32,555 bases of DNA from the NCBI GenBank assembly GCA_937930555.1, contig CALHCH010000087.1:1-32555 (forward strand), read 5' to 3'. Below are positions 4,705 to 31,653 of this stretch, one piece after another. The translations under genes were made by a program, and so were the position numbers. The stretch comes from Candidatus Absconditabacterales bacterium (lineage in GTDB: Bacteria; Patescibacteriota; Gracilibacteria; Absconditabacterales; Absconditicoccaceae). Each line of letters starts with the position of its first letter. Position 1 is the stretch's first letter. Below the pieces are notes generated by a model. The model was given only the letters and a program-made list of their open reading frames with translations. It searched no databases and had not been told where the DNA came from.

Positions 4705-4729
4705 AAAATCCCGTGTCTAGCGGGATTTT
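4705..4729. terminator. Bidirectional intrinsic terminator shared by the 3895 gene and tag
   Basis: Perfect 9-bp stem AAAATCCCG/CGGGATTTT with a 7-nt loop, flanked by A and T tracts on both sides, so it can stop transcription from both strands. The TAG stop of tag (4717-4719) lies in the loop, and the last Tag residues are encoded by one arm. Confidence 0.85.
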
Positions 4730-5301
4730 CTTGTCCGACAAGAAAGCACATGATCATCTACGACACCTACTGCCTGGAGGTAGGCATATACAATCGTAGA
4801 TCACACAAAGCTCATCCCTCTACGCTTGAGATCATGGGAGATCTGATCGGACAGCTCACTAGTAGCTGGACACTCATCCACTGTCTTGTGATAGCTGATC
4901 ACGGGAGTATGATCTACTCGTCCTCGCAAATAATCCGCAAACGAGCCAAACTCCTCCTGTATCGCCACAAATACTTTTGCGTTTTTTCTCACAGAATATA
5001 TCTTGAGCTTGTTGCGGACGATACGTTCATCGTCTCTGAGAGATTCTAGATACATATCAGGTAACTCAGCTCATAGTAGTGGGTCAAAATCCTTGAATGC
5101 TTGACGATATCACTCACGCTTGCGTAGGATAGTGATCCGACTCAGTCCTGCCTGGGCTCACTCCAGCACCAAGAATTCAAACAATATACGATCATCGTAT
5201 ACCGGCACTCCTCGCTCCGTATCGTGATATGCCTCATACGTAGTATCTCATACGCATCGTGAGCATCTATTTTTTTGGTTGTTCTGAGTGTTCTGAGCCA
5301 T
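4717..5301 (-). CDS. tag: DNA-3-methyladenine glycosylase I
   Basis: 194 residues (family about 185-200), ATG at 5301, TAG at 4717. Tag removes 3-methyladenine from alkylated DNA, starting base excision repair. Visible hallmarks: N-terminal Cys pair (RCSRC, possible zinc ligand) followed by YHDTEWGVP at 25-33, EGAQAGLSWITIL at 47-59, DYLWGWVDHTP at 123-133, PATSELSDQISHDLKRRG, and VGVVDDH near the C-terminus. The four Trp residues in these motifs that are conserved or aromatic in the family are written CGA (5212-5214, 4918-4920, 4924-4926) or CGG (5137-5139), a strong sign of Arg-to-Trp codon reassignment. The start overlaps the upstream membrane gene by 35 nt, so the two are probably translationally linked. 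Confidence 0.9.
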
Positions 5302-5770
5302 CAAGCAACAATGATAAAAGCTGGCTACTCTCATCCAGCATCACTCACTCATCTCCAGTCTCGAGATTGTATGGGTAGTAGTATGTCTGTCTCAGTAGAT
5401 CTACAACAGATGTCTGAAGTCCAGTGTGAGCATATGTAAGAGACTGGAGTGTGGTGCTAGATATATCCATACCATATATTGTATATACCACATCCCTGAG
5501 TATCTGCTGATACTCACGATATCGAGACTGGGTGTCGGTCTGTCATATGGTCTGCTGGAGCTGAGATATCCTCTCTCTATATATGTCCAGGCTAATGGGA
5601 GCTTCGTGCGCACCTCCCTCATTGATAAAGGAGGGGTTGGGGGTGGATTTGCGACTCATCAGCCACCATATACCAGCCATACTCAACCCTAACCACAAAA
5701 ATGTCCATCGTCATCGTATGGTTCAGGTTGGTGTGAGTATTTCTGGATACAAGAATAATTCTCAAGTCAT
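5267..5770 (-). CDS. Small membrane protein of the Bat operon, DUF4381-like
   Basis: 167 residues, ATG at 5770, TAG at 5267. A short N-terminal part (FLYPEILTPTG) leads into one Trp-rich membrane segment (about 18-40; read with CGA=Trp it is WGWWTFLWLGLSMAGIWWLM), then a cytoplasmic helical part with SQLQQTIGQTDTQS and YREYQQILRDVVYTIYG. Between DUF58 and Bat VWA genes this place is usually held by a DUF4381 protein, and the N-terminal Pro/Trp/TM pattern fits; assignment is mainly from context. A GC-rich palindromic repeat (5613-5656) is read in frame just after the membrane segment. Confidence 0.65.
5613..5656. repeat. In-frame palindromic repeat in DUF4381-like gene
   Basis: CCTCCCTC...GAGGGGTTGGGGG with an ATTGATAAAG centre, a variant of the GC-rich repeat family in this locus. 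It encodes a Pro/Asn-rich peptide (STPNPSFINEGG). Confidence 0.6.
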
Positions 5771-5927
5771 GTTATTTTAAATTATAATTTATTTTTAATC
5801 CACTGATTTATTGTAGGATAGAACTGATAAGGAACGATATTATTCTCTTTAAACTCTTCAAATGAATTTTATTGTCAAACTAAAAACATTTTTCTCTACT
5901 CTGAATTCTTAACTCTGAATTCTCTAT

Positions 5928-6845
5928 TTACATCACCTTCATCAACTCCCTCACTACATCATCCTCAGTATGTATCCTCACATATCTGCCTCATACTCAC
6001 TGCACCAGTCTCCTCATCTCCTGCAAGCTCTCATCGACAGCATTCTCATACACACCTGTCACTTGTCAGTGTACAGACGCCCTGCAGGGCGTCTCTACTG
6101 CCGCTACCACCCCTGACCCAAAACGAATATACTCCACATCACTACGCAGAGCCAACTCTTGAGCAGAAAAAAGATGCACTCGCAGTATCTCATTTTTGCT
6201 ACCTACTTGCTTGATCAGCTTGTGATCTAGATCTATACGATCTGTCACGATCACCACCAGTGTCCCACTCTCTTTCATTTGGATTATTTGCTGGAGCTTG
6301 TTTTCTAGTGACAACTCCTGTCTACCCACACTCACTCATCACAATGCGTATTTCACCATTTCCCATCTCCTTTTTCCCATCTCCTTTTTCCTTTTTCCTT
6401 CTAGTATGGTCCACAACGTTTCCCACTTGCCTCACATCTTGACCGTCTGCGATCAGTCTATCAGCCCTATCTTGTCACCATTGCGTATCGCAGCATATCC
6501 CAGCGCATACATCACCTCTTTCGCCTTATCGAGTTTGCACGCACTCTCTCTCCTAGCAAAGCGGTTGGGAGAGGGCTGGGGTGAGGGTATGCCAAGCACA
6601 TCACTCACCATCCACACCTTCAGTTGTCTTTCCTCCACAAACTCCTTGATATACAGATCTCCTCATTTTTTGGCACTCGTCTTCCAGTCGATTCTTTTGA
6701 TCGGATCACCAGCCACGTATCACCTCACATCAGCAAACTCCATCCCCTGTCACTTAAATTTTGTAGCAAAATTTCACAAAAATTGACTCGAAATCGAGCG
6801 TCCTAGCGTAAGATGTAATTGTTGGAGAGACGGATGGTTCTGCAT
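5928..6845 (-). CDS. DUF58 protein of the MoxR/Bat locus
   Basis: 305 residues, ATG at 6845, TAA at 5928. The DUF58 core is clear: GQGMEFADVRGY near 40, DPIKRIDWKTSAKKGGDLY and FVEERQLKVWMVSDV, then KLDKAKEVMYALGYAAIRNGDKIGLI, and a VWA-like C-terminal half with VVIVTDRIDLD. DUF58 proteins pair with MoxR ATPases; the role is thought to be assembly or maturation of envelope complexes. Three foreign-looking stretches are read in frame: a palindrome (6545-6588) where VWA domains carry the MIDAS serines, a GGAAAAAGGAGATGG tract at about 6359-6405, and the GTAG hairpin at 6071-6098. It starts 14 bp after the RAYT stop. Confidence 0.87.
6071..6098. repeat. REP-like GTAG hairpin inside DUF58 gene
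   Basis: A 28-bp near-perfect palindrome (13 of 14 pairs) around CGCCCTGCAGGGCG. On the minus strand it begins with GTAGAGACG. It belongs with the two hairpins in the RAYT gene (7055-7080, 7124-7150), which also have a GTAG end. Confidence 0.7.
6545..6588. repeat. In-frame palindromic repeat in DUF58 gene
   Basis: CTCTCCTAGCAAAGCGGTTGG followed by GAGAGGG; close copy of 3103-3147. Encodes IPSPQPSPNRFARR in the DUF58 protein between MVSDV and KLDKAKE. Confidence 0.7.
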
Positions 6846-6859
6846 TGGTCGTTATAGAT

Positions 6860-7444
6860 TTAAGATAATGAATCATTATTTCGATTCTGCGGATTGGTTA
6901 GGATGTAATGCATGATACGTTCGTATTCTGAGTGATCACGGATGATACGATCGTGATAGCGTGATTGTCGCGCAAATGATATATCGTGGTGACGGGCATA
7001 TTTGGTGACGTTTCATTTAAATAATTTAACGATATTTCACAATGTGGGTCCGTCGTAGGGATGGTTCAAAAAACCATCCCCCGTCTTAATTGATTTTTTC
7101 GTTCAGATTTGATTTTCACGTTCGGGACGTATTTTTGATACGTCCCTACGATTGGTTTTGATATTTGGATCATTTCGATCACGATTCCAATTGCCCAATA
7201 CCACAATCATATGGATATGATTTGGCATCACGATATATTTATGAATTTCTATATTTTTTCTCGATGATTCTATGCGTTGGATTTCTGTCTCACAACGTAT
7301 ACCCAATTCATTCAATAACATGCTACCATCCATCACCTCACCAAAACAATGTCTGCGATCTTTTGTTACGATAGTCACAAAATATCCTCATGGACTTGTA
7401 TAATCATGGGTCGGATGACGTGGTGATATACGATTTTTGACCAT
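6860..7444 (-). CDS. REP-associated tyrosine transposase (RAYT, Y1 HUH family)
   Basis: 194 residues, ATG at 7444, TAA at 6860. N-terminus HDYTSPGGYFVTIVTKDRR, the HUH motif in VMPNHIHMIVVL (about 72-83), and C-terminal LGNIVKLFKGNVTKYAR, WQSRYHDRIIR (catalytic Tyr region) and ILTNPQNWNND are all standard RAYT blocks. RAYTs cut and join single-stranded DNA at REP hairpins. CGA codons at 6968-6970 and 6881-6883 fall on the conserved Trp of FAWQ and NPxxW. The gene sits between moxR and DUF58 with 14-bp gaps on each side, so it is likely co-transcribed with the Bat genes. Two REP-like hairpins lie inside its own coding region, in the variable stretch between the HUH part and LGNIV. Confidence 0.92.
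7055..7080. repeat. REP-like GTAG hairpin inside RAYT gene
   Basis: GTA then perfect 9-bp stem GGGATGGTT/AACCATCCC with a CAAAA loop. The GTAG 5' end plus hairpin is the form recognised by RAYTs of other bacteria. It is translated in frame. Confidence 0.75.
7124..7150. repeat. REP-like GTAG hairpin inside RAYT gene, opposite orientation
   Basis: Perfect 9-bp stem GGGACGTAT/ATACGTCCC with a TTTTG loop, followed by TACG, so GTAGGGACG reads on the minus strand. It faces the copy at 7055-7080, giving an inverted REP pair about 45 bp apart. Confidence 0.75.
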
Positions 7445-7458
7445 ATATGATATATAGG

Positions 7459-8442
7459 TTACACAACTGAAATACCCTGCACAATCTCTGCTATGATCTC
7501 CTGTACACTCACTCCATCCGCCGTCGCATCAAAACTCAGTATCAATCTATGCTGTAGCACATCCTCTACTATCTCCTGGATATCCTCTGGTATGACAAAG
7601 GTCCTCCCATGGATCAGTGCCATCACTTTGGAAGCCGTGATCAGAGCGAGTGATGCTCTAGGTGAAGCACCATACTGGATATAGCTAGCCAAGCGCTCAA
7701 ATCATTTTTCTTTTGGATTTCTGGTGGCTACGATGATATTCTTCACATAATCATAGATGCTATCTGAGACATGTATCTGATCGACCAGCGACTGTATCGC
7801 GAGGATATCCTGATGCGGCACGATCTGAGATATCTGCTCCTGCATCACATCACCACCAAATCTCTTCATGATCTCTACCTCCTCATCCTCTGTAGGATAG
7901 CTGATCACCGTCTTGAGCAAAAATCTATCCAGCTGTGCCTCTGGGAGCGAATATGTCCCCTCCTGCTCGACAGGGTTTTGGGTAGCCATCACGACAAAGG
8001 GTGGATCCAGCTGATAGCTCTCATCACCGATCGTCACCTGTCTCTCAGCCATCGCCTCCAGGAGTGCGGACTGTACCTTGGCAGGCGCACGATTGATCTC
8101 ATCAGCCAGTACTAGATGGGCAAATATCGGTCCCGTCTTGGTCACAAAATTAGCGGTCTTCTGATCCCAGATCTGCGTACCTATCAGATCAGATGGCAAT
8201 AGATCTGGCGTAAACTGCACTCTCGCAAAATCCACCCCTATGGTCTGAGCAAGTGTCGAGATAGCGAGCGTCTTGGCGAGTCACGGGACTCACTCCAGGA
8301 TGATATGCCCTCTAGCCAGCAATGCTATCACGAGATTTCTCATTAGACGATCCTGCCCGATGATCACCTTCTTGGTCTCATACATCAGCGCCTGCAGCTG
8401 CTGAGACGCCTGCGTCACCTGTGTCTGTATTTCCTGATTCAT
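7459..8442 (-). CDS. MoxR-family AAA+ ATPase
   Basis: 327 residues, ATG at 8442, TAA at 7459; full family length. Walker A GVPGLAKT at 51-58, with both glycines written TGA (8290-8292 and 8281-8283), Walker B LADEINRAPAKVQSALLEAM, sensor ATQNPVEQEG, and the C-terminal lid (YGASPRASLALI, HRLILS). MoxR ATPases act as chaperone-like remodellers together with DUF58 and VWA proteins. It leads the MoxR-RAYT-DUF58-DUF4381-Tag run. All Arg in motifs use AGA, AGG, CGT or CGC. Confidence 0.95.
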
Positions 8443-8636: not shown

Positions 8637-8666
8637 TTATATAGTTGATTTGTATCTCACTATACT

Positions 8667-8867: not shown

Positions 8868-8905
8868 CCAACTCTGTCCAATTTCCACTAATTCTACCAA
8901 ACTGT

Positions 8906-10404: not shown

Positions 10405-10992
10405 CTAACCACTAATCATCACCTCCACAAAAGATTTGACTCTGGCGAGTACCTCTCTGGTAGTACCAAAATCTCTCAGTGAGAGTCCATGTGTGTCTAC
10501 TGCATATCATACTGCGTCCATATCACTCGCTCTAGCATACATCATAGATCTCCAGAGGTGGTATCTCTGAGTAAACACAATCACTCTGTCTACCTCAAAC
10601 TCCTCCTTGGCTTTGATCATACTGGCTCGGGTATCGTATCCATTGCCATCTACCCATATATCATCATCAGGCACACCGCTGTCCAACAAATAGTCTGCCA
10701 TAGAAATCGCTTCGAGATGATCATCATTTTTGTCATATCCGCTGACCAAGATTTTGGAGATGATGCCGTCATTGTATGCTCATAAGGCTGCATCCACTCT
10801 CTCCTGCAGTACAGGAGACAGTAGTCCATCGCTGGTCACTGATGCTCACAGCACCAGTCACACATCATAGTCAGCATAGTCTGGCTCCATCACATCTGAC
10901 CAACCAGTGAGCACCACAAACATATTGATAGCGATCAATGATCATATCAACAATACTCCTGCACCAAAAAGTCTTCTAAAAATACGCATCAT
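10405..10992 (-). CDS. SanA-type DUF218 membrane protein
   Basis: 195 residues, ATG at 10992 (a second ATG follows directly), TAG at 10405. One N-terminal membrane segment (about 6-32), then the DUF218 domain: GLVLGASVTSDG, LSPVLQERVDAAL, KILVSGYDKND, DYLLDSGVPDDDI, VIVFTQRYHLWRSMMYA. This matches SanA/YdcF proteins, which affect envelope permeability; in the SanA type the domain faces the periplasmic or outer side. CGA in GYDTWAS falls where SanA proteins carry an aromatic. It starts 12 bp after the stop of the PH-domain gene, so the two are likely one unit. Confidence 0.9.
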
Positions 10993-11004
10993 ACAAAACA
11001 AAAA

Positions 11005-13305: not shown

Positions 13306-14409
13306 TTAATTATTAAACTTAAACAACATCACATCACCATCCTGGACGATGTACTCCTTGCCCTCTAGTCTCTGACAACCATTGTCCTTGCTGCCAGACC
13401 ATCACCCGTGAGTCACAAAGTCAGTATAGGTCACTACATCTGCCTTGATAAATCATTTTTCGAAGTCAGTATGTATCACTCCTGCGGCTTGGGGTGCAGT
13501 AGATCATTTGCGGACTGTCCGTGCTCTGGTCTCCTTCTCACCAGTAGTAAAATAATACATCAACCCAACCGTATCAAAAGCGAGCGCAATCAGATCATCA
13601 AGTGTCGGGAGTACTGCACTCTCATCTCATCATTTCAGATCATCCATAAACAATTCTTTTTCTTCCTCGTCCAATTCTATCAATTCAGATTCAAACTTTG
13701 CGCTCACGATCGCTACTTTTTTGTGTAGTTTTTGTTCGTATTGTTGCTGGAGTGCATCGCCTTGTATCAGATCTGTCTCAGTCACATTGAGTGCATACAC
13801 AAATGGTTTGAATGTCAGGAAATTGTATGGTTTGAGCAATTCTAGCTCTGCTTCACTCAGGTCTGGGAGGATGTCTATGGCGAGCTTTTCTTGCTCTAGC
13901 GTAGACATGATCTTGTCTAGCACACCTACCAGTTTGGTGACCTCAGGATCGTTGGATTTGAGTTTGCGTTGAAGTCCTGCCTGGATGTTTTCTATGGATT
14001 GGATATCAGCTAGGATGAGCTCGGTATTGATGATCTCGATATCACGCAGTGGGTCTGGTCACCCCTCCACATGCACCACATCATCATCTGCAAATAAACG
14101 TACCACCTGCACGATCGCATCCACTTCCCTGATATGTGCCAAAAACTTGTTTCACAATCATTCTCATTCGCTAGCGCCCTTTACTAGTCCAGCAATATCC
14201 ACAAAATCAATCGCCGCATAGATCTTCTTCTGCGTATTGGATATCTCTGCCAGCTTGTCCACTCTCTCATCCTTGACCTCTACCACGCCCACATTGGGCT
14301 CTATAGTACAAAACGGAAAATTCGCAGCATCTGCAGCGTAATTTTTGGTCAATGCATTAAACAGAGTTGACTTACCTACATTGGGCAGTCACACGATTCA
14401 TATCTTCAT
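13306..14409 (-). CDS. ychF: YchF/Ola1-type ATPase/GTPase
   Basis: 367 residues, ATG at 14409, TAA at 13306. P-loop [12 protein letters not shown] at 4-15, with Gly4 and Gly7 both TGA (14398-14400 and 14389-14391), then [26 protein letters not shown], the YchF-specific N(x)nE region with NVTETDLI, and the C-terminal TGS domain ([49 protein letters not shown]). The Trp of RAWTV, invariant in the family, is CGG (13519-13521). YchF is a universal Obg-family P-loop ATPase that binds the ribosome. It is monocistronic in appearance. Confidence 0.96.
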
Positions 14410-16386: not shown

Positions 16387-17094
16387 TTAATTTGATGTGC
16401 CAATAATTCCATTCTTTTTCATCTCCTCAATTCTTTGAGTAGTTGTCTGTGCTTTAGAAAATAATTCATCTCTATCCTTACTTCTGTTTTCAGCGAGCAA
16501 TCTTGCTTCAACTTTTTTATACTTTTCTTCCACTATTCAGTTCACTAAATCACATAGAGCTATCATCCTTTTGAAATCCTCAACTCATCTTCATCAAACA
16601 GATTTTGTTCAGCAACAGAACAATCAAGTAATCTCTTTGGCGCTCTCCTCTATTTCTTCTGGAACAAACACAATCATACTTTGTGTAAGCTCTTCTCAAT
16701 TCTTTCATGCATGGGCAACAAATTCATTTCTCAAATGGATAACATGTGCATGAAAATCTTTAGGTCATTTTTCGAGATGATTCAAATCACTAGTATCAAG
16801 CTTAATTCATCTTCATCATTTTGCGGATGCAAATAATTTTCAGTACAATATAATTGAATGCTCCCATAAGATATCAATAAACTCTCAATCTGGATTCTTT
16901 AATAACTCAGTAGCTATCTCCTTAATCCTAGTAATATCACTTTGCATAGAATAATATCCTCTGCACTGCTTTGATATTGGACAATCAACTACCAATCGAG
17001 GAGCCTCAATTCAATCATTAAAATCGATATAAGGGATAACGATATCTCATGCTCACATCTGAGTTCTTGCAGAGCCTCATACATTTATTTTCAT
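16387..17094 (-). CDS. HEPN-like protein of unknown function
   Basis: 235 residues, ATG at 17094, TAA at 16387. A mostly helical protein with HVIHLRNEFVAHAGKN at 117-132; R122-x5-H128 has the Rx4-6H form of HEPN domains, many of which are RNases in toxin or defence systems. The C-terminal 60 residues form a charged helix (EEKYKKVEARLLAENRSKD). HEPN assignment rests on this one motif, so it is a suggestion only. It follows the AAA ATPase by 19 bp and probably works with it. Confidence 0.65.
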
Positions 17095-17113
17095 AATTAG
17101 TTTAATTAAAGGA

Positions 17114-18436
17114 TTAAATTAGACTAAGCATAATATCAATTGAGTCTTTTAACATTTGTTTAGTATAAGATCTTCCCAACTCATCAGGATGATGTATGTT
17201 ATTTCTAATGAATACTGGAAGCTTCTCAGTAACTGTGTCTCATATATTTTTTCATCAAAATGCTTTTGTAACTGTAAACGTAATATCTGGTATATACGAT
17301 AATGAAGAAAACAGATTATTTCCTAATCAACTAGGTCAATCTTCATTATGCTTTATTAGTAATGCTGTAAATAGTTCAATATGCAGAAGCTCATCAAATA
17401 TATCGTAAGCGATATAATTTATTAAATTATGGCTAGGGCTGTTTATACTATTGGGATAGTATCAAAGCACTTCTCATTTTTCATCTCAAGAACAAAATCT
17501 ATCTACCTTAACGCAAACACTTTTTCAATCTTCTAATCATTGTAATATATACGGAGAGTGAGTAGCAATAAAAAACTGAACATCCAATCAATCAAATATA
17601 TCCAATAAAAATTGGGTATACCTAGTCTGCCAAATGGGATGTAAACTCGTTTCCGGCTCATCAATAAACACCATGGCTCAATCCATTTTTCCTAAATTGA
17701 TCAACAGTTCTCAGACTCTAAACAGAATCTGTTTCTCTCAAGTACTAAAATCACTTATTGAAACTTCGTTTCAATTTATGTCTTTGAAAAGAATTTTATG
17801 CTTTCCTCATTCTGGTCTTATTGCTTCAAAGGTCTTTGAAGATTCGTACATTTTTTTAAATGCATCTTTGAATCTATCAAACTTAATTTCTCATGTAAAT
17901 TGATTTCCAGGTTTTCATGGATTCTCTTGCATCCATTTAGACCTCATCTTGGCGTCTTGTGTATCTAAATCAATTAGTAGTTGAGGAATAACCTTTGATA
18001 AATCTTTAGACATTTTTTTTGGAATCTCGTCTCCATCTGTAACTGATGCTGTAACAGAAGATATATCTGGAACGTCAAATGTAACGTCCAAACTAGAATA
18101 CACTGCTTTTACAATTTCTTGTTTCCCATGAGATGAACTAGTTGAATGATTCTTCTTTGATGATATCAATGTCATTAAGTTATTTGTTCATGTCGGTCAT
18201 TCTGAATCTAATAACTTAACATCAACTTCAATTTTAAATTTATCTACTTTTTTATATGCAGTTTGAGACGTCAATCAAAAAAATATAGACTCTAACAAAT
18301 GAGTTTTTCAGGCTCAATTATTTCAAACGACAAAAAATATCTTTGGAACATCCTCAATAGTTGGATCAAAAAAAGTTACCGTACTATCATTGGGAAAAAC
18401 TGGATGTTCTTTGAAAATTATTTTTGAAACTTTCAT
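17114..18436 (-). CDS. AAA/ABC-type ATPase (AAA_21, OLD-like) of defence operon
   Basis: 440 residues, ATG at 18436, TAA at 17114. Walker A GNNGAGKT at 38-45 with all three glycines TGA (18323-18325, 18314-18316, 18308-18310). Signature FSTGEKQILF, Walker B MVFIDEPETSLHP, and IATHSPYIL with the switch His. The C-terminus (RNNIHHPDELG...YTKQMLKDSIDIML) is shared by AAA_21-type ATPases beside restriction and abortive-infection genes. ATP use by SMC/RecF-like head domains is expected; a partner effector is likely one of the adjacent HEPN-like proteins (inference). 22 bp after the 51-residue gene. Confidence 0.88.
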
Positions 18437-18458
18437 GACGACTTAAAAATAAAACGTT

Positions 18459-18614
18459 CTATTCTGACTCCTTAACTACATCAGTCTCTCTAATCTGATA
18501 ATCGACTAATGCACTAGCCATTTTCCTCATTTGAATAAGTTGAAGCTCAAGTTCCTCATCAGGCATTTCATCATATTTAGGTCATAAGATTTCTCTCATT
18601 TCAGCAACGTCCAT
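18459..18614 (-). CDS. Small helical protein, 51 residues
   Basis: ATG at 18614, TAG at 18459. Starts MDVAEMREILGPKYDEMPDEE and continues in an amphipathic helix (LELQLIQMRKMASALVDYQI). The ATG comes one base after the TAA of the fusion gene (TAA T ATG), so the two are translationally coupled. Role unknown; a small subunit or inhibitor of the fusion protein is possible. Confidence 0.65.
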
Positions 18615-18615
18615 A

Positions 18616-21219
18616 TTATATATGATCTAAAAATTCATCTATACTATTTGGCAAAGTATTCTGACACTCTTTGGCTTCGTCTTTCGTAAGTTTCTCTGTG
18701 TGAGCACATCTAATACGAAACTTCTTATTTATTTCACCTATAGTTTTGAGATAATCTACCAGAAACCCAAATCAATTTCAAAATTTATTTCTCAGGAATT
18801 TATGGAATTCTTGTAATAATCTACTTTGCTGCAAAGTAGATCAACTGTCTTTCTTTATAAGATCAAGAATAAAAATAATATTTCCAAGAGTGTACTTTAC
18901 CTCTTCAAGAGGTTTCTTGTGAAATTTCTTTACCATTCTTGAGAACATATATGATTTAACCTCTTCTCAATTTAGCTTAGATTCATCTTCCCAAGAAACT
19001 AATTCATTAACATCATCAAAATTTTCATTCATATAAGCACTAAACGCAACAAAAATTTTGTTAAGAAGTTCATTCTCTAAACTTCTACAATATTCAAGAA
19101 CAACTGGAGAAAAATCAATTCACTCAAATTTTGAAAGCTCTTCAAACAATAATGATCATACTGGTAGATATTCTTTTGAAAGATCATGGAGATCATCTCG
19201 ATTTAGAATTCTGCTCTTAAGCAAAGTCTCGTGTTGCAAATATCAGTCTTCATTACTCTTTTTTAGGTCATCTCAAATTTTTTGAACTTGCTCCTGTATT
19301 AAAATCAATTTTCATTCTAGATCAAATTCCTTGTTCTTAATACTGTCTATCTTATCAAGAGATTCAGATATCATACTCTTTATTTCCTGAACATTAGATT
19401 GGACCGACTTTGTTATTGCAATATTTTCTATCACATTAACATCAACTCTAGCTGCAATTTTTAACAACATGTCCAACTTAGAATCATATTTTTTTTCAAG
19501 GTAGTTAATTATGTATCTCCCCGATTCTGCGTTTAAATACTCAACTTGATCAGTATTTCTTGTGCCAAAACCTATACTAGCTCAGCTCTGTTCAGACTTA
19601 GCTTCTCATGTTTTATGATATCAATTTATTTCGTATTTATTATTAGAGTTTCATGATAGCCATTCTTTAGGATCAGGGAATCCTTTCATTTCTACTAATC
19701 ATTTTTTCTCAATATCAAAATGATAGAAAGAATTCTGATCGAGTATAAATGCATCCTTTATATCAGTTCAATTTAGTAAATCTTCTACCTGATGAATCAA
19801 CATCCTCTTATCTTTGATATTTCTCTTAACTTCTATAATTGCCTCAATCTTTCATTGGTATTCCAAGGCCAAGTCAGCAATCTTAGTATCTGATAATTTA
19901 TACTCAACATTAACAGTTCGTCATTTATTTTCGGCTGACTGTTTTAGTTGGTCAATCATAACTTGCTCAGAATCTGATACGATTTCATTGTATGAAACTT
20001 CCAATTTAGGTATCTTGAAGCTTTTAATATCACTTATTGATATTCTCTTTACAATACTTCAGGCACTATATTTTCTCAGATAAGAATTAAAGATCTTATC
20101 CCACAAATTACTATCATAAAACAATTTTAAATATTTTGTCTTATCACGAATTACTATGATATTTGGATGAGCCAGGTATTTAGGATTTTCTTCTTTTACG
20201 ATTACAGTTCTAAAGTCAGGTCAAAAGTTTGAAATTAAAATATCTCATTCTTCAATAACTCTCATTCACTTAAAAGAGTTGGCATACTTTTGTCATTGTA
20301 CTGGTACAACAATCTCTCATTGAATATTCTTTGGCATAATCATAGCATACTCTCATCAGTCATACATGATCTTATCAGCACTTGGTGGTCTTCAAGTAAA
20401 TATCTCAGCGACTTCTCATATCGTAGTAACATCATAATCTACCAGCTCATTATCTATTATTGAGTTATCAAAAAGATGATACGATACGGATCGTGTTTCA
20501 GTAAGATTTTTAATATCAATTTGATTGTACATCTGCCTACTTGATAATTTTTCTGCAATATTTCATCAGTCATATTTATCCATATACACTAATCAGGTGG
20601 ATGCGTTATTTGTGATAATAATCAATGAGGTGTTAATTCATGTATGTGGATAAAATGCTCACTTTCTTCATCATTCAAATTCAATGATCGCATTTAGATT
20701 ATAGTTTTTGGTGAGATATACCCTGAAATCTTGTAAAGTCCTATTGAATAAAAAGCCATTGGGAACCACCAGTATCAGCTTTCAGTCTTGATTGAGGAGA
20801 TTCAATGATTTGTAGATATATGCTTCTTCTGATTTCCTCAACTTAAATCATTCTTTAGTTTCCTTTACCGCATCTCATTTGAATCTCATACCAAATGGTA
20901 TTGTTCAAACTATCAAGTCATAGGTTTTGGATATATCTGCGTTTAGAAAATCTTCATTAATAATTTTTGCGTCAGATACTTTCGAAGCAATTTTAAGATT
21001 TTCACCATATACTTCATACCCCTCCACTTCTCAATAATTTATGTGGCGTGCAAGATTTCCTATTCACATCATAGGAATAAGAATTTTCTTTACATTATCT
21101 CATCTTCAAAGATTGGACAACTCTTGACATAAAAAATCAGGAATATAGAAAAAACCTCTACCGAGATCAGATTCTTTGACAAGCTTACTCTCTAGCAATA
21201 ATTCTTTAAAATCTTGCAT
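18616..21219 (-). CDS. Methylase-like / TRD / PD-(D/E)XK-like / HEPN-like fusion protein
   Basis: 867 residues, ATG at 21219, TAA at 18616. Domains by eye: N6-methylase-like fold 1-215 (motif I region PMMGIGNLAR at 49-58; motif IV region DLIVGTIPFG at 101-110 where active enzymes have NPPF/NPPY; VVPNGFLF); HsdS-type target recognition domain about 255-415 (VTTIGEVAEIFTGRPPSADK, then GMRVIEEGDILIS, SISDIKSFKIPKLE); PD-(D/E)XK-like segment 430-500 (D449, E463-V-K465 in ADLALEYQGKIEAIIEVKR); coiled-coil stretch 575-660; helical C-terminus with FRIRCAH (R835-x4-H840, HEPN-like). Catalytic Asn of motif IV is Thr, so methylation may be lost. 19 bp after hsdM and one base before the 51-residue gene. 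TRD and methylase assignments are good; nuclease and HEPN parts are tentative. Confidence 0.8.
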
Positions 21220-21238
21220 TGAAATATGGCATATAAAA

Positions 21239-22768
21239 TTATCCCAACATCTCCTCCAGCTCATCCATCCCTTGCAATATACTATTCTCTATCTCTCTGA
21301 TTTGCTTGATAAGTATCTCTGGCTTTTCATATTCTATTGTTTCATATACTATCTCTTTGTATTTGTTGAGACTAAGATCATATCATTCTTCTTGTATCTC
21401 TTCTTTCGTCACCCAAAACCAGTTATCTCATTCTTTAGGTTCAGTATCGTACTTTCTCCCCAATACAAGATCTTTGTATAAGCTCTGTATCTCAGGCACA
21501 TTACTTCACTCTATTTCATTTCTTTTATCATCTAGAGAGTATCCATCATTTTGCAAATCATAGTACCAAACTTTCTTGGTTTCATCCCCTTTGGTAAAGA
21601 TCAAGATAGCTGTACTTACTCAAGCATAGGGCTTGAAGACTCCACTAGGTAAACTAATGACAGCTTTGAGTTCGTTATCTTCTATAATTTTTTCTCTTAT
21701 GTGCTTATGTGCCTTACTACTCCCAAACAATACTCCATCAGGAACAATCACTCCTGCCTTTCCTCAGATAGTAAGTTTCTCCAAGATAAGTTCCAAAAAT
21801 AAAAGCTCCGTCTTCTTGGTACTAAGAGAAAAGTTTTCATTCATATCTCCAGCGTCAATACTTCACTTGAATGGTGGATTTGCTAGCACGATATCATACT
21901 CAGGAGTAAGTTTGTACTGCTTACCTAGCGTATCTCCATATACAATATTTGGAGAATCTACTCAGTGCAAGATACTGTTCATAAGAGCGATCCTTACCAT
22001 AGTGCTATCAATATCATATCCTATGAGTCACTCATTCTTTACTCTCTTCCGGTCTTCCTTACTCAGCATATCTCCTGTATATTGCTCTTCTCATCACTCA
22101 TCTTTTATAATCCCGTCCTTAGAGGTATTCTCTTTAATGATGTGCTTATATGCATTGATCAGAAATCAAGCAGTACCACATGCTGGATCACACACTTTAT
22201 CATGCTTGGTAGGATTAACGATATCTACTATCATCTGTATGATATGTCTTGGTGTACGAAACTGACCATTCTTTCCAGCGCTAGATATCTCAGAGAGTAA
22301 GTACTCGTATATATCTCCAGCAGTATCATCGTTCTGAGCCGTGATTTGTAGATCATTGATTGTAGTTGTTGCTGTGACGAGCATACTTGCCTTGGGTATC
22401 AAGAATGAAGCATCCTTGAGGCTCCCAGCAAAGCCATCTCCTGTATCAAGTTCTTTGATAAATGGAAACACAACATCTCTCACATACGGGAACATCTGAT
22501 CTGCACTCATCTGAGTCCAATGTGATCGTCTCAGCTTCTGCTTATCATAGCTCTTATCTCCATCGACATAGGTTCCATCGAACAATGAGGTATAGTCTTG
22601 TCCGAGTCTCTTTGCCTTAGCTACTCTCTGACTATCCAATATATCAATACGATACATAAAAATCAGATACGAGATCTGTTCTACTGCTGTGAGTGGATTG
22701 GATAATCCTCCAGACCAGAATATTTCTCGGAGTTTATCAATTTGTGATTTGAGAGTTGAATTTAGCAT
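21239..22768 (-). CDS. hsdM: Type I restriction-modification DNA methyltransferase subunit
   Basis: 509 residues, ATG at 22768, TAA at 21239. HsdM_N domain ([20 protein letters not shown] at 13-32; KLRWSHW at 78-84), AdoMet motif I DPACGTAGFL at 194-203 whose second Gly is TGA (22166-22168), [15 protein letters not shown], and catalytic NPPF at 297-300. Transfers a methyl group to adenine N6 in the HsdS-defined site. CGA codons at 22727-22729 and 22526-22528 fall on the Trp of LWEIFW and LRWS. Catalytic motifs are intact, so the M2S complex should be active. Confidence 0.95.
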
Positions 22769-22770
22769 AA

Positions 22771-23565
22771 TTACTGAGGTCTAATAAAAACTTTTACTGG
22801 ATATGTGTTTGATTGCTCAAGGTCGTTTTCCAATCATACTGGATTTCAAACTAATCATAGTGAATCATACACAAAACAAACTAAAGTTTCACAGTCAGGA
22901 TGTCATTCATATCTGGCTATGTCTACTATTAACTGTTCTCATATTTGCTTATCTTTAAGTGACTCTCTGGTCATTTTAACTTCAACTGCAATCTTTTCTT
23001 TCTTGAGAATAAAATCTATCCTAGAAGATCATCAAGCATAACTTGGACTATATTCTTCAGGACGTACATCATCAAAATGTATACTTAACAATCAGTTAAG
23101 TAAGTCTTGTACGTCATACTCATCCTATATATCTATCGTCCCACGAGATCAGTGTCTCTTCCTCAGTTTTCTTGCAACAGTATGAAATGATTGAAATAAG
23201 TTTTCTAATATTCAAATTGAATCTACTTCTTGTATATCATCATCAACTGGAACTTCATCGATATACGATAACAGTAATGGCTTTGCATAATTTAATCCCT
23301 TTTCGCATCACTCTTCTTTTGTATCATAAATTGTTTTTCATCATCAGATAAAAGAACTATCTTGATATGGAATGAAATCTATTTCATTCTGACCAAAATA
23401 AATATCCTTAAAATCTCTTAAATGTCATGAGTTATCTCAAAAAACTCTTTCGAGATATCTAATAGTTTTTTTATGTCGAGTCTGAAATTGAGAAGATTCT
23501 CTTGATTGTCATATAAGAGAGTCTACTTCATCTAAAAGAGATTGTAGAGTTTCACGATCTTGCAT
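22771..23565 (-). pseudogene. PD-(D/E)XK nuclease-like protein, interrupted by in-frame TAG
   Basis: Reading frame of 264 codons (ATG 23565, TAA 22771) broken by TAG at codon 147 (23125-23127). Both sides read as one known layout: an N-terminal part (RYLERVFGDNSGHLRDF) and, right after the TAG, DEYDVQDLLNGLLSIHFDD, EYSPSYAGGSSRIDFIL and KKEKIAVEVKMTRES, with nuclease core D and EVK, then DCETLVCFVYDS. The family normally has Glu before DEYDVQ, so one GAG-to-TAG change explains the stop. No start codon lies after it. It sits between hsdS and hsdM with 6 and 2 bp gaps. Sequencing error, a recent mutation, or readthrough cannot be told apart here. Confidence 0.8.
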
Positions 23566-23571
23566 ATATAT

Positions 23572-24672
23572 TTAAATAATGTTAAAAGATTCTTGCATTT
23601 GTTGAGCAAGGAATAGCTCTAATTGCTTCAAACTATAGCTCTGGTTTTTTAATATTTCTATATTTCAAATAACAATCTTTGAATACTTTTGTTGAAGAGA
23701 CTTGCCTGGAATTGGAACCAAAATTCATTTCAAAACTTCGCCCTTAACTCATTGAATTGTTGCTCATCTCTTTTGAGAGTCAAAAAAGGATATATATGAC
23801 CTAACAACATCTGATAAATATATGACATCAAAGTCTTGACTGATATCCGTCATTGATACTATATCTTGGTTTGTTGAAATATCACATTGATTTATAGATA
23901 CCTTTCCTACTCAAACTCTAGTTCATATTATCAGAGATCATTTTTTAATGATTTTAGTTGCGGATTTTTTAATCGCTTCTTCTGTTAAATATTCAACAGC
24001 ATCAGTTCAATCTATAAAGTAATTTCACAATGACACTGTGGTTACCCAAGGATTATCTCATTCAAAATATTCTGGATGCTTTCTTGAAGGAGTTCATCAT
24101 GATTTAAATGATCATATCTTTCATAATTCTATAGTATCGAAATTATTAGTATTACTTTGAATATCCCCAAACATCTCCACAAAAATACTCTTCCCCAACT
24201 CCTCTGTCTTTGCTATCGCTTCTTTCTTTTGATCTATAAGAGATTGGATATGGTCCAGTTTTTTAGCTATGGCTTTTTGGGTTGGGAGGTCTGGATACGA
24301 AACAGTAATTGTTTTTAGGTGCTTAAAAAATCTTTGGTATCATTCTTTTCAAGGTATATGAACGCTACTTAAATAATGATAAGCATACTTAGGGTCCAAT
24401 TCATTAGAACATTGTAAGACTTTAACTCAATCAGCTCATATAGTAAAAGGCGTATCTACAAACTTAAATATCTTAGTGTGATCTCAAAAAATTATACAAG
24501 GCGAATTTTCGAAATTAACTAGTTCGCTACTATCGGTGTATCATCAAATATAATTCTTGCCTTGATCAATAATTGAAAACTCTCAAGAAGAGAGATAATC
24601 TTCTTTCTTTATCTTATTAAACTTTCTAGTTATGTCAGTAAAGACATCCAAAAATCATTTTGTTTTTATCAT
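23572..24672 (-). CDS. hsdS: Type I restriction-modification specificity subunit
   Basis: 366 residues, ATG at 24672, TAA at 23572. Two target recognition domains: TRD1 about 1-145 (SSGEFSIIDQGKNYIGGYTD), a conserved helical spacer (LPTQKAIAKKLDHIQSLIDQ), and TRD2 about 190-345 (LGKIGSFKSGGTPSRKHPEYF, NPWVTTVSLGN, LIIGTRVGVGKVS), then a short terminal helix. Each TRD reads one half of a split DNA site. Somewhat short: the second spacer helix is reduced. The start overlaps the upstream membrane-protein gene by 7 nt. Confidence 0.93.
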
Positions 24673-25796
24673 ACATTATTTGATCATAAAGGTAGTTTAT
24701 TTATTAGTGTTTCAAGTAGTGATTTATATCAAGGATCTTTCGTTTTGTTTTTTGAATACATATGCGAATCATTTTCGGAAATAAATGCATTAACTAGTTT
24801 TTCTGTAGTTATAAATTCTATCTTTTTCTTTTCATCAGAGTCATTAACTGTATCTATAATCAAAGGATAGACATCAAGCATACTTTGTTTTTGTGAATAA
24901 CTAACAAATAGGTTGCTAGATATCTTATACTGACTAATAAACAGAGATAACAAATAAAATAGAACTGAAAAAAATAGTATCTGCTTAATCAAATTATATA
25001 TATTTGAAAAATTAAGTACTATCTCCTGTTGCTCTAAAATTGATTTTATCTCAGTATCAGAAAATTCAATTGGATAAGTAATAGTAGTTCACGTTGAATA
25101 TGCTTGATTTAAAATTATCTCTCTTTCAATAGAAATATCTCTAATTCTAAAAAGATTATAAGAATACACTAGAATTACAATTCAAAGAACTATAGCTAGT
25201 CATAAGGCAACTGCTCTTTCAATAAAATATCGTTTTATCATCTTCTCTGTATTCATCACGAAGAATCATTTTCTTTCTCATTCTTTATCAATTGTACTTC
25301 ATTTCTCAGACAACTTCTTAGCCAATCATTCAACCTTTTCTATTAGTCAATCTACATGACTAACTTTTTCATCTAAATTATTATTTTGGATAATATATTC
25401 TAGATATTCATTCTTTAAATTATTTAAATTTGTAAGTGCGTTATTTCAGTCAGTTCATTTTTCAATACTATCTCTATACTTTTTTAAATTTGATTTAACT
25501 ATATTTAATTGTCTGGTATAGCTTTGAGTATTTCATAGATATTTTCATAAATCTTGAATCTTTAAATACTGATTATTAAATTCTTCAACAAGAGATTTAA
25601 TGATATTATCATATTTATGTGTATCACTTTTCTCTGACTTATCTCTAAACTCCTCTATAATTTCTTTAAGGTAAGAGAAAGTATCTCAAAAATCTGATGT
25701 TAAATCAGATGTCAGTTTCCCTGTTTGATCTGTTATGGATAAATTTTCAATATCTATCGCATTATATCAATCTCGGTTAATTTCAATATCAGTCAT
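24666..25796 (-). CDS. Two-TM coiled-coil membrane protein within the hsd operon
   Basis: 376 residues, ATG at 25796, TAA at 24666. Residues 35-175 are long, charged helices likely forming a coiled coil (YLKEIIEEFRDKSEKSD, LNIVKSNLKKYRDSIEK). TM1 about 192-213 (FIERAVALGLAIVLGIVILV) and TM2 about 268-288 (LIKQILFFSVLFYLLSLFI) enclose a loop of about 55 residues. A soluble C-terminus follows. No family recognised. It lies between hsdR and hsdS with a 5-bp gap and a 7-nt overlap, so it belongs to the restriction operon. A membrane effector or membrane tether for the complex is an inference. Confidence 0.8.
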
Positions 25797-25801
25797 ATAG
25801 T

Positions 25802-28531
25802 TTAATTAGACAAACTAAACATCCCCACAAACTCCATCATCTTCTGTACCTCATCACTTTTAAATAATCTATCTACTGCTCCAGCTCACATCACTCATTC
25901 GATTGATGGACTATATAAGTCCTCATAAGTCACTGGCTTCCTTTGCAGGATTTTTGATTTTATAATTTTCATAAATCTTATCTGCTGGGAGTTGTAGTTT
26001 TGCTCTTGGATATGTTTTTCAAATAAGTCATTCACTTCATGCTCCCACTCTGGTAGACTTCATTTCCCTAGAGCTACTTTGATCAATTGCTCAAAACTTA
26101 CTGTTAGTCTCCCCACAGCTACTCTTAGATTACTGAGGTCTATATGGTATTCGTTTTGACTAAGGACTTGTTCCAATGCGTGTATATCCTCTTGAGACAC
26201 CAGTTCATCATTGAGGATTTTTTGTATGGTTGGGTGATCCTTAAGGACATCCTCCATCTGTTGCTCAAAGATTGCTCGATACTTATCTGACTCCATCTTC
26301 TTGTTATCAGCATAGTGAATCCATCTTCTTTCGATTACCTCATCCTTGAGATCTGTGATCAGCAATTCTTTGACCTGTGGTTTCCTATACTTCATCAGTC
26401 CAGTAAACTCTTCTATAAGACCATCTACTTGCTCTGTATCTATTTGATTCCAAAAACTCGGAGTGAGTACTTCTTTGATTACATCCTGTTTTTCTTCTAC
26501 TAGTGATATATTGCTAGGCAAAGCATTGATATCTGAAGCCATACTTCACATAAGTTTTTCTTGTTTCTCAGACTCTTGTGTTAAGATTGCTTGCTTAAGT
26601 CTAGATCCTTTAGTCATAAACTTTATTTCATCTATAGTATTTTCAGCATAGTATCTCATAAGTGGTGCAACTTTCTGCAGTTGCTCATTAGGATTAACTG
26701 CAATGTTATCCCATATCTTTCAACTACCTATATCTAGCACGAGTTCTCTATGATCCATCACATCAGAATTTTCTTTATCTAGAGACAATACCATCTTTGT
26801 AATCTTTGTAGTTAATTCTTCTACTCTATCTTTATCTTCTCTATTCTTCCACAGTTTCAATTCATCAACTAGAGCCTCGAAGTATTGTTGTTGTATAGGT
26901 TTTATCTTCCCACTTGGCTTGCTGAACTTGCGATTATCCTCAAAATTTAAACCATAATCAAAGATAAGAAAATCTTGTTTATCTTCTCATGGTCAAAACA
27001 AATCAGGACATAACCTAGTTCATCTACCTATCATCTGTCGAAACTTAGGCTCTGACATTACTTTCTTAGCAAAGACTAGGTTTACCAACTCAGGCACATC
27101 TATACCTGTATCCAACATAGCCACTGATATCGCTATACGATATTTCTTTTCTGTTTTAAATTTCTTAAATTGCTTGATCAGATCTCCAGACTTCTCTACA
27201 TTTGAAGTAATAACCACAGAAAAATTATCTAAGTTTGGATACAATTCCTCAAAAATTCTTTGGAGAGTGTCAGCATGTTTCTGAGTTTGTGCAAAGATTA
27301 TTGTCTTACCAGGCAAACCATCCTCTGCTGGAATTGCATGTTGCATGAACTCTTTAATCATTGCTCTATTGGTGTCTATATTTGATATAGTCTTTTCTAG
27401 TTCAGTTCATTCAAAGTTTATTTCATCTACAGTCTTTCATTCTCTTGTGAGTTGATCCAATATTTCATCAGGCAACTGTCTTGACTTAATACCCTGTATT
27501 TGAAATGCTGTTCTTGCTACCATTACATTATATGGAACAAGAAAATTTTCTTTAATAGCATCATCTAAGCCATAAAAATATGTAGGGTCTTCCGTTCTGA
27601 GTCAAAATACTTTATATGTATTTCTATCTATATGCTGTATTGGAGTAGCAGTAAGTCAGACTTTAACTGCATCAAAATGCTCCAAGATTGCATTCCAATC
27701 TCAATACAATGATCTATGCACCTCATCTATCACTATCAAATCAAAGTATCCACTACTATACTCGTCTAGCTTGTTAATCATTGTTTGATATGTCGCTGCG
27801 TACAGTCTTGCATTCTTATCTGTTTCTCAGGTTACGATTTCTGTTTTTGGTTCATTTGGTATATGAGTAAATCAATCGTCATGAGCTTGCTGTCTAAGAG
27901 CTTCTCTATCACATAAGAAAAGTACTTTTTGAGCATTAGATGACTTCAGAAACACATCGATCAATCACATAGCAGTTCTGGTCTTCCCTGTACCAGTCGC
28001 CATCACTAGCAAAAAACTTCTTTGTCATGCGTCTACTCATTCAGCTACTTTCTTGATAGCTTCCATTTGATACCATCTTCCAGAGATGTCTGCATTTATT
28101 GCAATCTCTCCAGCAGGTGTTTTGTTCTCATTCAAGAATTTTCTTCTTTGTAGATCAGTCAATGAATAAAATCATCTAAGCGATCTTGGAACTTCTCACA
28201 ATTCTGAATTATAGAATTCAATTTCTTTTCCGTTAGACAAAAAAATGAAAGGTCTCTTTCATTGTTTTGCTTCAAGTAATTCTGCGTATTCTAGTGCTTG
28301 ATGTTTACCAGCTCTTACATCACGAGAAAATTTCTTTGCTTCTATAATTGCTAGTACAGTTCCATCATTATTGTATAGTGTGTAATCTACATACAAAGTT
28401 GAATCTCATTCTCTTTCAAGTGGAAATTCTGACATGACTTGTAAAGGATTTTTAATATCCCGTCATGCTAGCTTCAATTTCTTATCTATGAGTAATTCAC
28501 GAGTTTCATCCTCGTTGAGATGTTCTACCAT
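25802..28531 (-). CDS. hsdR: Type I restriction enzyme, motor/endonuclease subunit
   Basis: 909 residues, ATG at 28531, TAA at 25802. N-terminal nuclease with D49, E64-A-K66 and Q78 ([18 protein letters not shown]), helicase motif I MATGTGKT at 177-184, DEVH at 269-272, TATP at 294-297, and motif VI QMIGRGTRL with Gly from TGA (27020-27022). HsdR translocates DNA and cuts unmethylated DNA away from the site. CGG at 28460-28462 gives LAGWDI and CGA at 27038-27040 gives KFWQMIGRG, both conserved Trp in this family. First gene of the ten-gene minus-strand operon. All catalytic motifs are present. Confidence 0.95.
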
Positions 28532-28661
28532 CAATGAATAGTTTTTTCGTAAAATAGACTATTTTTTGTTTATACAAAAAGATTTCTCAAAATACAGCCT
28601 AAGTCCATAATAGACATAATTCTAAACATTTCTCAGATTTTCTTGAGGCAACAAAATCATC

Positions 28662-28796: not shown

Positions 28797-28804
28797 GAAA
28801 TAAA

Positions 28805-28835
28805 GCTTTAAATTTTAAAGTTTAAAATTTAAAGC
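28805..28835. repeat. 31-bp AT-rich perfect palindrome between rpmB and tRNA-Lys
   Basis: GCTTTAAATTTTAAA and its exact reverse complement around a central G. It lies just after the rpmB stop and before the tRNA 5' end. It could be a weak terminator for the ribosomal genes or an RNA processing signal. Confidence 0.6.
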
Positions 28836-28845
28836 ATATCGGAAT

Positions 28846-29034: not shown

Positions 29035-29074
29035 CTTCGATAAGATAATAATTTAAAATATATGGTAGTATATA

Positions 29075-29719: not shown

Positions 29720-29776
29720 AAGTAAGTTGTTTTACAAAATAGAAGTGAGAAAACGATATTTTTGATATTTGCTAGA

Positions 29777-30607
29777 CTAGGCAGCTGGTTTGCCGCCATC
29801 TAGTTCGTCTTGTAGCGTCTTGAGTTCGTCCCATTTTCATTCTGCAGCCATCTTGGACTGCTGAGGTCGAGTAGTAGGATCATGTGTCGCAAAATTTCAT
29901 TCTGCTGACTCTAGTATTCATTTGATAGTGTCTGCATCTGTATCTCCAAGCGCTGCATATGTAGAGATACCAGCTGTATGGAGGAGTTCGTTGATCTTTG
30001 GACCTATTCATTCGATCTTGGTAAGATCATCAGACTCACTAGGAGGTGTATCTACAGCAGGAGTTGCAGCTTCATCTTGAGCCGGTGTGTCAGATTCTAC
30101 TGTGTCAGTATTTTCTGTGGTCTGTGGAGCGTCTTGTGGTGCATCAGTAGTCTCAGGAGCTACATCGTCTGATGACTCTACTACTGGAGCAGCTGCTTCT
30201 TGGATCTTTTTAGCCTCTTCGATAGCCAATTCTAGAAGATCCACACCCTTATCTTGAGCAGTAGCTATAGATTTAAATTTAGCATCCTTACCTACCTTAT
30301 CTCTGATATAGTAGAGTTTTGATCTTCTCACCTTGTAGTTATCTACTACCAATACTTTCTCAAATTTGGAAAATGAGAGTGGGTAGATTTTTTCAATTGT
30401 TTGACCAGCAGCCTTACCTCTGATAGTAAACGTACCATCTATATGGTTTGGTTTTTTTACTTTGATGACCAATCCTTTGAACTTCCAAGTTCTAAGATTA
30501 CCTTCCTCACCCACGGTTTCGTGGATTTCTAGCATTTGACCAGCTTTTACAGGGAGGATATGATATCATTTTGCTGCTCTGATTGATTTGAGTCTAGGAG
30601 TATTCAT
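29777..30607 (-). CDS. rplS: Ribosomal protein bL19 with C-terminal helix-hairpin-helix domain
   Basis: 276 residues, about 160 more than usual bL19; ATG at 30607, TAG at 29777. Residues 1-115 are bL19 (VKAGQMLEIHETVGEEG, FTIRGKAAGQTIEKIYPL, DNYKVRRSKLYYIRD). An acidic Glu/Asp/Thr/Pro linker follows (about 135-195), then LTKIEGIGPKINELLHTAGI, a helix-hairpin-helix domain ending DPTTWPQQ and GKWDELKTLQDELDGG, the domain seen at ends of some ribosomal proteins in other bacteria. Trp of TTWPQQ is CGA (29867-29869). The Gly of EGIGPK is TGA; the standard code would cut off the whole extra domain. Confidence 0.93.
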
Positions 30608-30670
30608 TACAGTGATGAGTTGCTAAATAAAATCGAAAAATTACGTGAAAGAAAAATATCTCAAAATCGT

Positions 30671-30817
30671 TTATTTTACCTGTCTTCTTTTTACTACCTC
30701 AGCTTTTCGTTTTCTTTGCTGATCAAGTTGTTTTCTGATATCCATGATCACAACCTTATGCACTCTTTTTAGAGCTTTTCTCAGTTTTTTTCTTCCATTT
30801 GTCTTAAAAGTACCCAT
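30671..30817 (-). CDS. Small basic protein, 48 residues
   Basis: ATG at 30817, TAA at 30671. MGTFKTNGRKKLRKALKRVH and a Lys/Arg-rich helix to the end (RKAEVVKRRQVK). Very basic and helical, like a small ribosomal or rRNA-binding protein. It lies in a run of ribosomal genes, but no ribosomal family could be assigned. Confidence 0.6.
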   Translation of the reverse strand: MGTFKTNGRKKLRKALKRVHKVVIMDIRKQLDQQRKRKAEVVKRRQVK

Positions 30818-30821
30818 TATC

Positions 30822-30854
30822 TAAAGTGTAAAGTATAAAGTGTAAAGTATAAAG
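30822..30854. repeat. Tandem 14-bp repeat
   Basis: TAAAGTGTAAAGTA twice plus five bases, in the gap before the 48-residue gene. It is similar in style to other degenerate simple tracts between genes here. Confidence 0.7.
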
Positions 30855-30879
30855 CGCGAGCTAAACACAAACATTGTCA

Positions 30880-31104
30880 TTATTTAGTTATTTGAGCTTC
30901 GGTAAGTCCAAACTTCTTGATTCTTGCTTTACATTTTTGCATAGCATCGACCAATCGTTTTGTTTCTCACTCTTTTGCTATTCTTTTTTCCAATTTTTGA
31001 AAATGCTTCACAACTTTTTCTAGTCTTTTTCCAGACTTTTTTCTTTTCTTATTTGGATTTTGAAACGAATGTTCCGGTTTACCCGATTGATTTCTTGTAG
31101 GCAT
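30880..31104 (-). CDS. Small basic protein, 74 residues
   Basis: ATG at 31104, TAA at 30880, one TGA as Gly. N-terminus MPTRNQSGKPEHSFQNPNKK then basic helices (RLEKVVKHFQKLEKRI, MQKCKARIKKFGL). It sits between rpsG and the 48-residue gene. Looks like an RNA-binding or ribosome-associated protein; no family recognised. Confidence 0.65.
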
Positions 31105-31185
31105 TGCAGTAAAACTAAAAGCTAAAAATGAAAAGCTGAAATAGATAATAATATTCTCAAGTCTCGTATCTCAAATCTAAATTCT

Positions 31186-31653
31186 CTATTTAACGTATTT
31201 TGCAAGGTAAGCAAATGCTTTGTTTGCGTCAGCCATCTTATGCGTATCTTCTTTCTTCTTTACAGCAGATCACTGGTTAGAATAAGCCGCCAACAACTCT
31301 TCTGCAAGTCTTTGGTACATAGCAGTGCCTTTTTTTGCTCTACTGTAGTCGATGATCCACTTACAAGCATAAAAAAACCTTTTCTTGTTTGGGACTTCTA
31401 CTGGTACCTGATAGATCGCTCATCAGATTCTTTTAGATTTGATCATCACGCTTGGAGATGCGTTTTCTATCGCTGATTCTCGTACTGCTTTTGGATTTAC
31501 ATGACCATTTTTTTTGATCTCCTCCAATGTCTTACGAAAAATAGTTCTCGCGATGTTTTTCTTACCATCTTGCATGATATAGTTGATAAACTTCTCAGTT
31601 TTATCGTCAGTAGATGGGAGCGAAAACATCTGTGCTTTTTTAAATTTTGCCAT
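31186..31653 (-). CDS. rpsG: Ribosomal protein uS7
   Basis: 155 residues (usual 155-156), ATG at 31653, TAG at 31186. A GTG three codons upstream is in frame but not needed. Features: FINYIMQDGKKNIARTIF, ENASPSVMIKSKRIGGAIYQ, YQVPVEV, WIIDYSR and KMADANKAFAYLAKYVK. Primary 16S-binding protein of the 30S head. The Gly after KSKRI is TGA. CGA at 31480-31482 (KAVWESAIEN) is at a position where uS7 usually has an aromatic residue. Second gene of the str-type pair with rpsL. Confidence 0.96.

Follow-up and report, generated by a model that had tools for sequence, protein, structure and literature searches.

CGA and CGG as very probable tryptophan codons in a genome of Candidatus Absconditabacterales

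The window described here, that is the whole stretch of DNA that was analysed (32,555 nucleotides, contig CALHCH010000087.1 of assembly GCA_937930555.1 from a Candidatus Absconditabacterales bacterium), carries among others genes for YchF, Tag, HsdR, HsdM, HflX, RAYT, uS7, bL19 and YdcF-like proteins, in which CGA and CGG occur in frame. Judged from their alignment with homologues and from the transfer RNAs (tRNAs) of the genome, both codons are very probably read as tryptophan. The alignments also point to UGA as glycine, and such a code has been published for the Absconditabacterales. In 29 chosen genes of the window (9429 codons) CGA is found 43 times, CGG seven times, TGG 62 times and TGA 326 times, and the other arginine codons are present as CGT (61), CGC (32), AGA (220) and AGG (55). 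Each of the 15 codons that the original prediction, made from the letters alone, had named as tryptophan codons proved to be a CGA or CGG lying in frame on the minus strand between the neighbouring residues it gave. The sites that could be compared are the following:

13519..13521, minus strand: CGG at W297, the invariant Trp of RAWTV in YchF (gene 13306-14409)
4717-5352, minus strand: gene of Tag, 3-methyladenine DNA glycosylase I (Pfam PF03352)
5257..5259, minus strand: CGA at the conserved W32 of Tag (RCSW), Trp in the three PDB relatives printed
5212..5214, minus strand: CGA at W47 of Tag (EWGVP), Trp in PDB relatives
5137..5139, minus strand: CGG at W72 of Tag (LSWIT), Trp in PDB relatives
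4918..4926, minus strand: two CGA in YLwGw of Tag, 4924 (W143) at a Trp and 4918 (W145) at a Phe of the relatives
28460..28462, minus strand: CGG at W25 of HsdR, the Trp of (S/A)GW in the N-terminal part, Trp in 3h1t (gene 25802-28534)
27038..27040, minus strand: CGA in KFwQMIGRG of HsdR, Lys and Gln in two PDB relatives, uninformative here
22526..22528, minus strand: CGA at W81 of HsdM, the Trp of RWxHW, Trp in 5ybb (gene 21239-22768)
31480..31482, minus strand: CGA in uS7 where the class member G103 and E. coli have Phe (gene 31186-31662)
10627..10629, minus strand: CGA in a DUF218 (YdcF-like) protein where G103, the one reference, has Tyr (PF02698; gene 10405-11001)

At W297 of YchF all 80 named loci have TGG, as do all 20 genomes from other families of the class, and the 31 rows from the window's own family are divided into TGG (26), CGG (three, the window's genome being counted twice) and CGA (two). 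In Tag the residues W32, W47, W72 and W143 are Trp in the three PDB relatives printed, out of seven matched. The sites at 5257 in Tag and, as an aromatic position only, at 10627 in the DUF218 gene are additions to the sites listed originally. The prediction that its codons fall on conserved Trp or aromatic positions stood for YchF, Tag, HsdR (28460) and HsdM (22526), all with Trp, and for uS7 and Tag (4918) with Phe, but not for HflX (9845), HsdR (27038), HsdM (22727), RAYT, the bL19 tail and YdcF, which turned out to be uninformative or adverse. For HsdR 27038 the Trp consensus finds no support in the PDB alignment, HsdM 22727 lies beyond the PDB alignments printed, the RAYT protein (sites 6968 and 6881) has no relative among the PDB structures, and the codons at 29867 in bL19 (residue 247) and at 606 in YdcF (residue 21) are located outside the Pfam matches.

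Codon columns were compiled from about 372 kb of the genome together with the window, corresponding to about a third of its 1206 kb, and the references were stretches of the class members G103 and G046, which have no in-frame UGA in YchF, two stretches of 50 kb each from E. coli K-12, and 77 named bacterial loci. The query was masked at CGA, CGG and TGA, and after removal of overlapping open reading frames (ORFs) and ribosomal RNA (rRNA) 86 ORFs with homologues were left. The 104 CGA sites gave 167 pairs (W 29, F 20, Y 17, R 12), the four CGG sites five pairs (W 2, L 2, F 1, R 0) and TGG 200 pairs (W 72, R 4). Arg is found in 737 of 1316 pairs for AGA (Trp in three), 77 of 166 for AGG, 144 of 251 for CGT and 29 of 82 for CGC, the last three without any Trp, so that these four codons are paired with Arg in 35–57% of cases, and Trp accounts for 3 of their 1815 pairs. 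A TGG-like profile is favoured over an Arg-like one by a log-likelihood ratio of +135.6 nats at CGA, where 80 of the 104 sites favour Trp, and of +14.5 nats at CGG, where four of four do, and the same method gave Arg as the best score for both codons in G103, G046 and E. coli. With up to four references at each of the 104 CGA sites, Trp is present at 19, Arg at nine and both at none; the Trp sites include VVHIwYIK and KNwPCEWF, which we take to belong to RpoC and uS3. The claim that no conserved Arg is encoded by CGA or CGG thus holds in essence, and the column comparison suggested with it, performed here against homologues instead of the Pfam consensus, yields CGA and CGG best as Trp and AGA, AGG, CGT and CGC best as Arg.

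These conclusions rest on the cleaned set, since antisense ORFs and translated E. coli rRNA had contaminated the first tallies, in which every ORF was counted; in G103 the number of TGG codons paired with Arg fell from 31 of 310 before cleaning to 5 of 245 afterwards. We dropped the notion of TGG codons in Arg columns as a fossil of the code switch, because such pairs also occur between standard-code genomes and became fewer after cleaning.

Within the family, against G198, a member of the same genus, the 150 CGA columns of the genome are occupied by TGG (57), CGA (53) and Tyr (8), with at most three for the other Arg codons, which fall outside the eight classes listed, and the 124 TGG columns by TGG (63) and CGA (22). 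The eight CGG columns show TGG (3), CGA (2), Gln (2) and Phe (1). Against G071 from another genus, 94 CGA columns gave TGG (34), Tyr (17) and Phe (12). Judged by these columns, CGA and TGG are exchanged as synonyms inside the genus. CGA is also about as frequent as TGG, with 44.3 per 10,000 aligned columns of the cleaned set against 49.4 (CGG 1.7), and therefore the codon appears to have been refilled with Trp. A rough count over ORFs chosen by length gave 65.5 CGA and 67.9 TGG for the genome and 10.1 and 78.5 for G071; in small samples of G058, G112 and G165 the same rough count gave more CGA than TGG, and thus the genus is not alone at such a stage. The share of CGA and CGG among the Trp codons is weakly correlated with the G+C content over 23 genomes of the family (Spearman 0.47, p 0.02), where ORFs were taken by length only and 20 of the 23 genomes are represented by 20 kb or less.

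The tRNAs agree with this assignment. Among the 28 tRNA matches of the genome the anticodons CCG, UCG, GCG, UCU, CCU and CCA are found. Both tRNA(UCG) and tRNA(CCG) have the pair A1:U72, the discriminator base G73 and a D-loop without A20 and hence are of Trp type, tRNA-Trp(CCA) likewise has A1:U72 and G73, and tRNA(GCG), tRNA(UCU) and tRNA(CCU) are still of Arg type. The tRNA check that accompanied the original prediction therefore came out in its favour, as both tRNAs are present with Trp and not Arg identity elements. No tRNA(ACG) is among the 28 matches of the 85.5% complete assembly, in which GCG was found. In a sample of 17 family genomes (the genome itself and 16 others) tRNA(UCG) carries G73 in all 17, with the pair 1:72 being G:U in eight, A:U in eight and G:C in one. 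A tRNA(CCG) was read in 14 of the 17, always with G73; twelve of these were parsed by script and all have A1:U72, and two were read by eye, namely L214 from G010, which has three mismatches in the acceptor stem, and L219 from G148. The motif scan of the family genomes gave no CCG match in G140 and G205. For G112 the match L229 proved to be false, having a different anticodon, and the likely CCG tRNA of this genome was left out of the count of 14. Neither of these two tRNAs of the window's genome has A20, nor does any of the 27 further family tRNAs parsed (tRNA(CCG) of G042 by eye).

Outside the family, 12 outgroup genomes were searched and tRNA(UCG) shows A73 and A20 in nine of nine parsed; G152 gave no match, G079 had 13 matches, of which five were fetched, and its tRNA(UCG) is outside the count of nine, and G059 yielded a CCG tRNA only. 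Of the three outgroup tRNA(CCG), those of G046 and G079 (family f22, L259, with A73 and A20) are of Arg type and that of G059 (family f14) has A1:U72 and G73. The latter genome, with the Trp-type CCG tRNA L240 and 15 in-frame UGA in YchF, looks as expected for the change of CGG to Trp in part of the Gracilibacteria. Rows L232, L235, L245 and L247 were left out as duplicates; L249, L255, L257 and L258 were also left out, and ARAGORN found no tRNA in them.

A single tryptophanyl-tRNA synthetase (TrpRS) was matched in the genome, and matches were obtained in 37 of 40 family genomes, with one each except for G140. This member of family f1, the family of the window, has two TrpRS matches over the cut-off and is the sole such case among the 40. 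Between family (10 rows) and outgroup (10 of 14 rows parsed) the TrpRS sequences differ, and none of the differences seen could be attributed to anticodon recognition. As a mechanism we propose that TrpRS would charge three Trp tRNAs, with the anticodons CCA, CCG and UCG, that the loss of A20 would keep the arginyl-tRNA synthetase (ArgRS) off, and that CGA would be read by tRNA(UCG), which probably also reads CGG, with tRNA(CCG) reading CGG.

Several observations weigh against tryptophan at both codons. Trp is less conserved at CGA (29/167) than at TGG columns (72/200) and Arg is more frequent there (12/167 against 4/200). Of the nine Arg-aligned CGA sites, four have disagreeing references, four depend on one reference with 24–29% identity, and at the remaining one both references (21–22% identity) show Arg. 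With BLOSUM62 alone Trp (11.8) and Tyr (11.6) are nearly tied for CGA, a tie that is resolved by the exchange of CGA with TGG described above, and before cleaning the same matrix favoured Tyr (Y 6.2, W −4.8, R −45.7). The uncleaned tally had R 4 and W 2 of 10 for CGG and W 28 and R 18 of 184 for CGA. CGG is supported by only four sites with homologues, and the assembly is 85.5% complete in 89 contigs. Within the window, W206 of Tag, likewise a CGA/CGG site, is opposite Phe, Phe and Cys in three PDB relatives, and HflX 9845 is opposite Ile in the two printed.

Among the alternatives, an ambiguous decoding with mainly Trp and some insertion of Arg fares best, and we still consider it very unlikely. 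It would account for the slight Arg excess at CGA and for C35 being retained in both tRNAs, this anticodon base being a determinant for ArgRS, but A20 is missing from every family tRNA parsed, and at most of the sites aligned with Arg the references disagree or there is just one weak reference, with only one site having Arg in both. That CGA alone encodes Trp and CGG is unassigned or different is highly improbable: CGG is rare, with four homologue sites only, and residue 240 of HsdM, a CGG absent from the original list, stands opposite His, Phe and Arg in the three relatives printed, but CGG is also found at the invariant Trp of YchF and at Trp of Tag and HsdR, the CCG tRNA with A1:U72 and G73 is present, and in the same-genus columns CGG is replaced mostly by TGG and CGA. 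The CGG columns as a whole do match Trp, if on few sites, with HsdM 240 as an adverse one. Finally, that both codons still encode arginine and the Trp matches arise by chance or from misread frames can be practically dismissed, as the 12 Arg pairs of CGA and the lack of information at HflX, HsdR 27038, the bL19 tail and YdcF face a CGA that behaves opposite to four other Arg codons within the same genes, 57 TGG against at most three other Arg codons in 150 same-genus columns, and G73 without A20 in both tRNAs.

By sequence comparison the genome belongs to the Absconditabacteria. The named genome Candidatus Absconditabacterales SKYG23 (L039) is identical to G065 of family f1, to which the window belongs, as motif places and the place of YchF agree between the two; the YchF tree unites f1 and L039 with a support of 100/100 (69/59 for f1 without L039). 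In the cleaned columns TGA is paired with Gly in 472 of 858 cases, which points to UGA as a glycine codon. The only prfB match reaches 252.7 bits against a cut-off of 370 and carries P-D-T, the motif of RF1, with SPF expected in RF2, so that it is presumably RF1-like. A tRNA(UCA)-like motif is present in nine of nine relatives and was not found in the 85.5% complete assembly of the genome itself.

Apart from the codons, three features of the window may be mentioned. Positions 16387-28534 hold a Type I restriction-modification cluster of HsdR (PF04851), HsdM (PF02384) and a specificity subunit (PF01420), together with an extra Eco57I-like methylase (PF07669) and an AAA_21 ATPase. At 1571-8442 a MoxR-type ATPase, a DUF58 protein and two VWA proteins are encoded close together, a group that resembles a Bat operon. 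The bL19 protein (29777-30607) has a long C-terminal extension that matches the helix-hairpin-helix family PF14520 at 193-229, below the curated cut-off.

The reading of CGA and CGG as tryptophan has practical consequences, since NCBI table 25 keeps both codons as Arg and therefore about 46 (aligned columns) to 53 (window genes) codons per 10,000 would be mistranslated, some of them at invariant Trp. The clade represents one of few published bacterial sense-codon changes, and the steps, i.e. the exchange of TGG with CGA and the change of tRNA identity, are readable across its genera. Tentatively, we suggest a sense-codon capture at a late stage, with CGA now serving as a main codon for Trp, above the published range of the clade (counted differently). 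The Trp-type CCG tRNA of the Gracilibacteria-like G059 might mean that CGG changed first, ahead of the separation of the two groups; a tRNA(UCG) of Trp type, perhaps copied from the CCG tRNA, would have arisen later in the Absconditabacterales alone.

The genome-wide screen to which the original prediction referred does exist: Shulgina and Eddy 2021 (PMC8629427) predict CGA and CGG as Trp and UGA as Gly in Absconditabacteria with consistent tRNAs, among them tRNA(GCG) for CGU and CGC. They tabulate six Absconditabacteria species, all with CGA below 37 per 10,000 (for GCA_002791215.1 CGA 30, CGG 24 and UGG 35), and state that decoding can be established by experiment alone. A 2026 paper (PMC13092985) also has Absconditabacterales decoding both CGA and CGG as Trp. 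Experimental proof of the code is reported in none of the titles or abstract openings listed by the literature searches, which lay outside most subscription journals. The phenomenon is thus already published and the genome is a confirmed instance of the published code, to which we add the tRNA identity across 17 family genomes, the exchange of CGA and TGG within the genus and a CGA usage close to that of TGG.

Compared with the Absconditabacteria (SR1) code as given in PMC8629427, codons, amino acid, clade and tRNA set (Trp-type UCG and CCG together with GCG) are the same and there is no difference in kind, CGA being at 44.3 here against the published <37 per 10,000 with differing denominators. 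The change of CGG to Trp described there as tentative for Gracilibacteria is similar in the CCG tRNA with A1:U72 and G73, as seen in the f14 genome G059, but tRNA(UCG) of f14 is of Arg type with A73 in G014 and G170, the two parsed. Anaerococcus and the RFN20 Bacilli also share the capture of CGG by Trp via a CCG tRNA; in these bacteria CGA is still Arg and tRNA(UCG) is missing (PMC8629427), whereas here both codons change.

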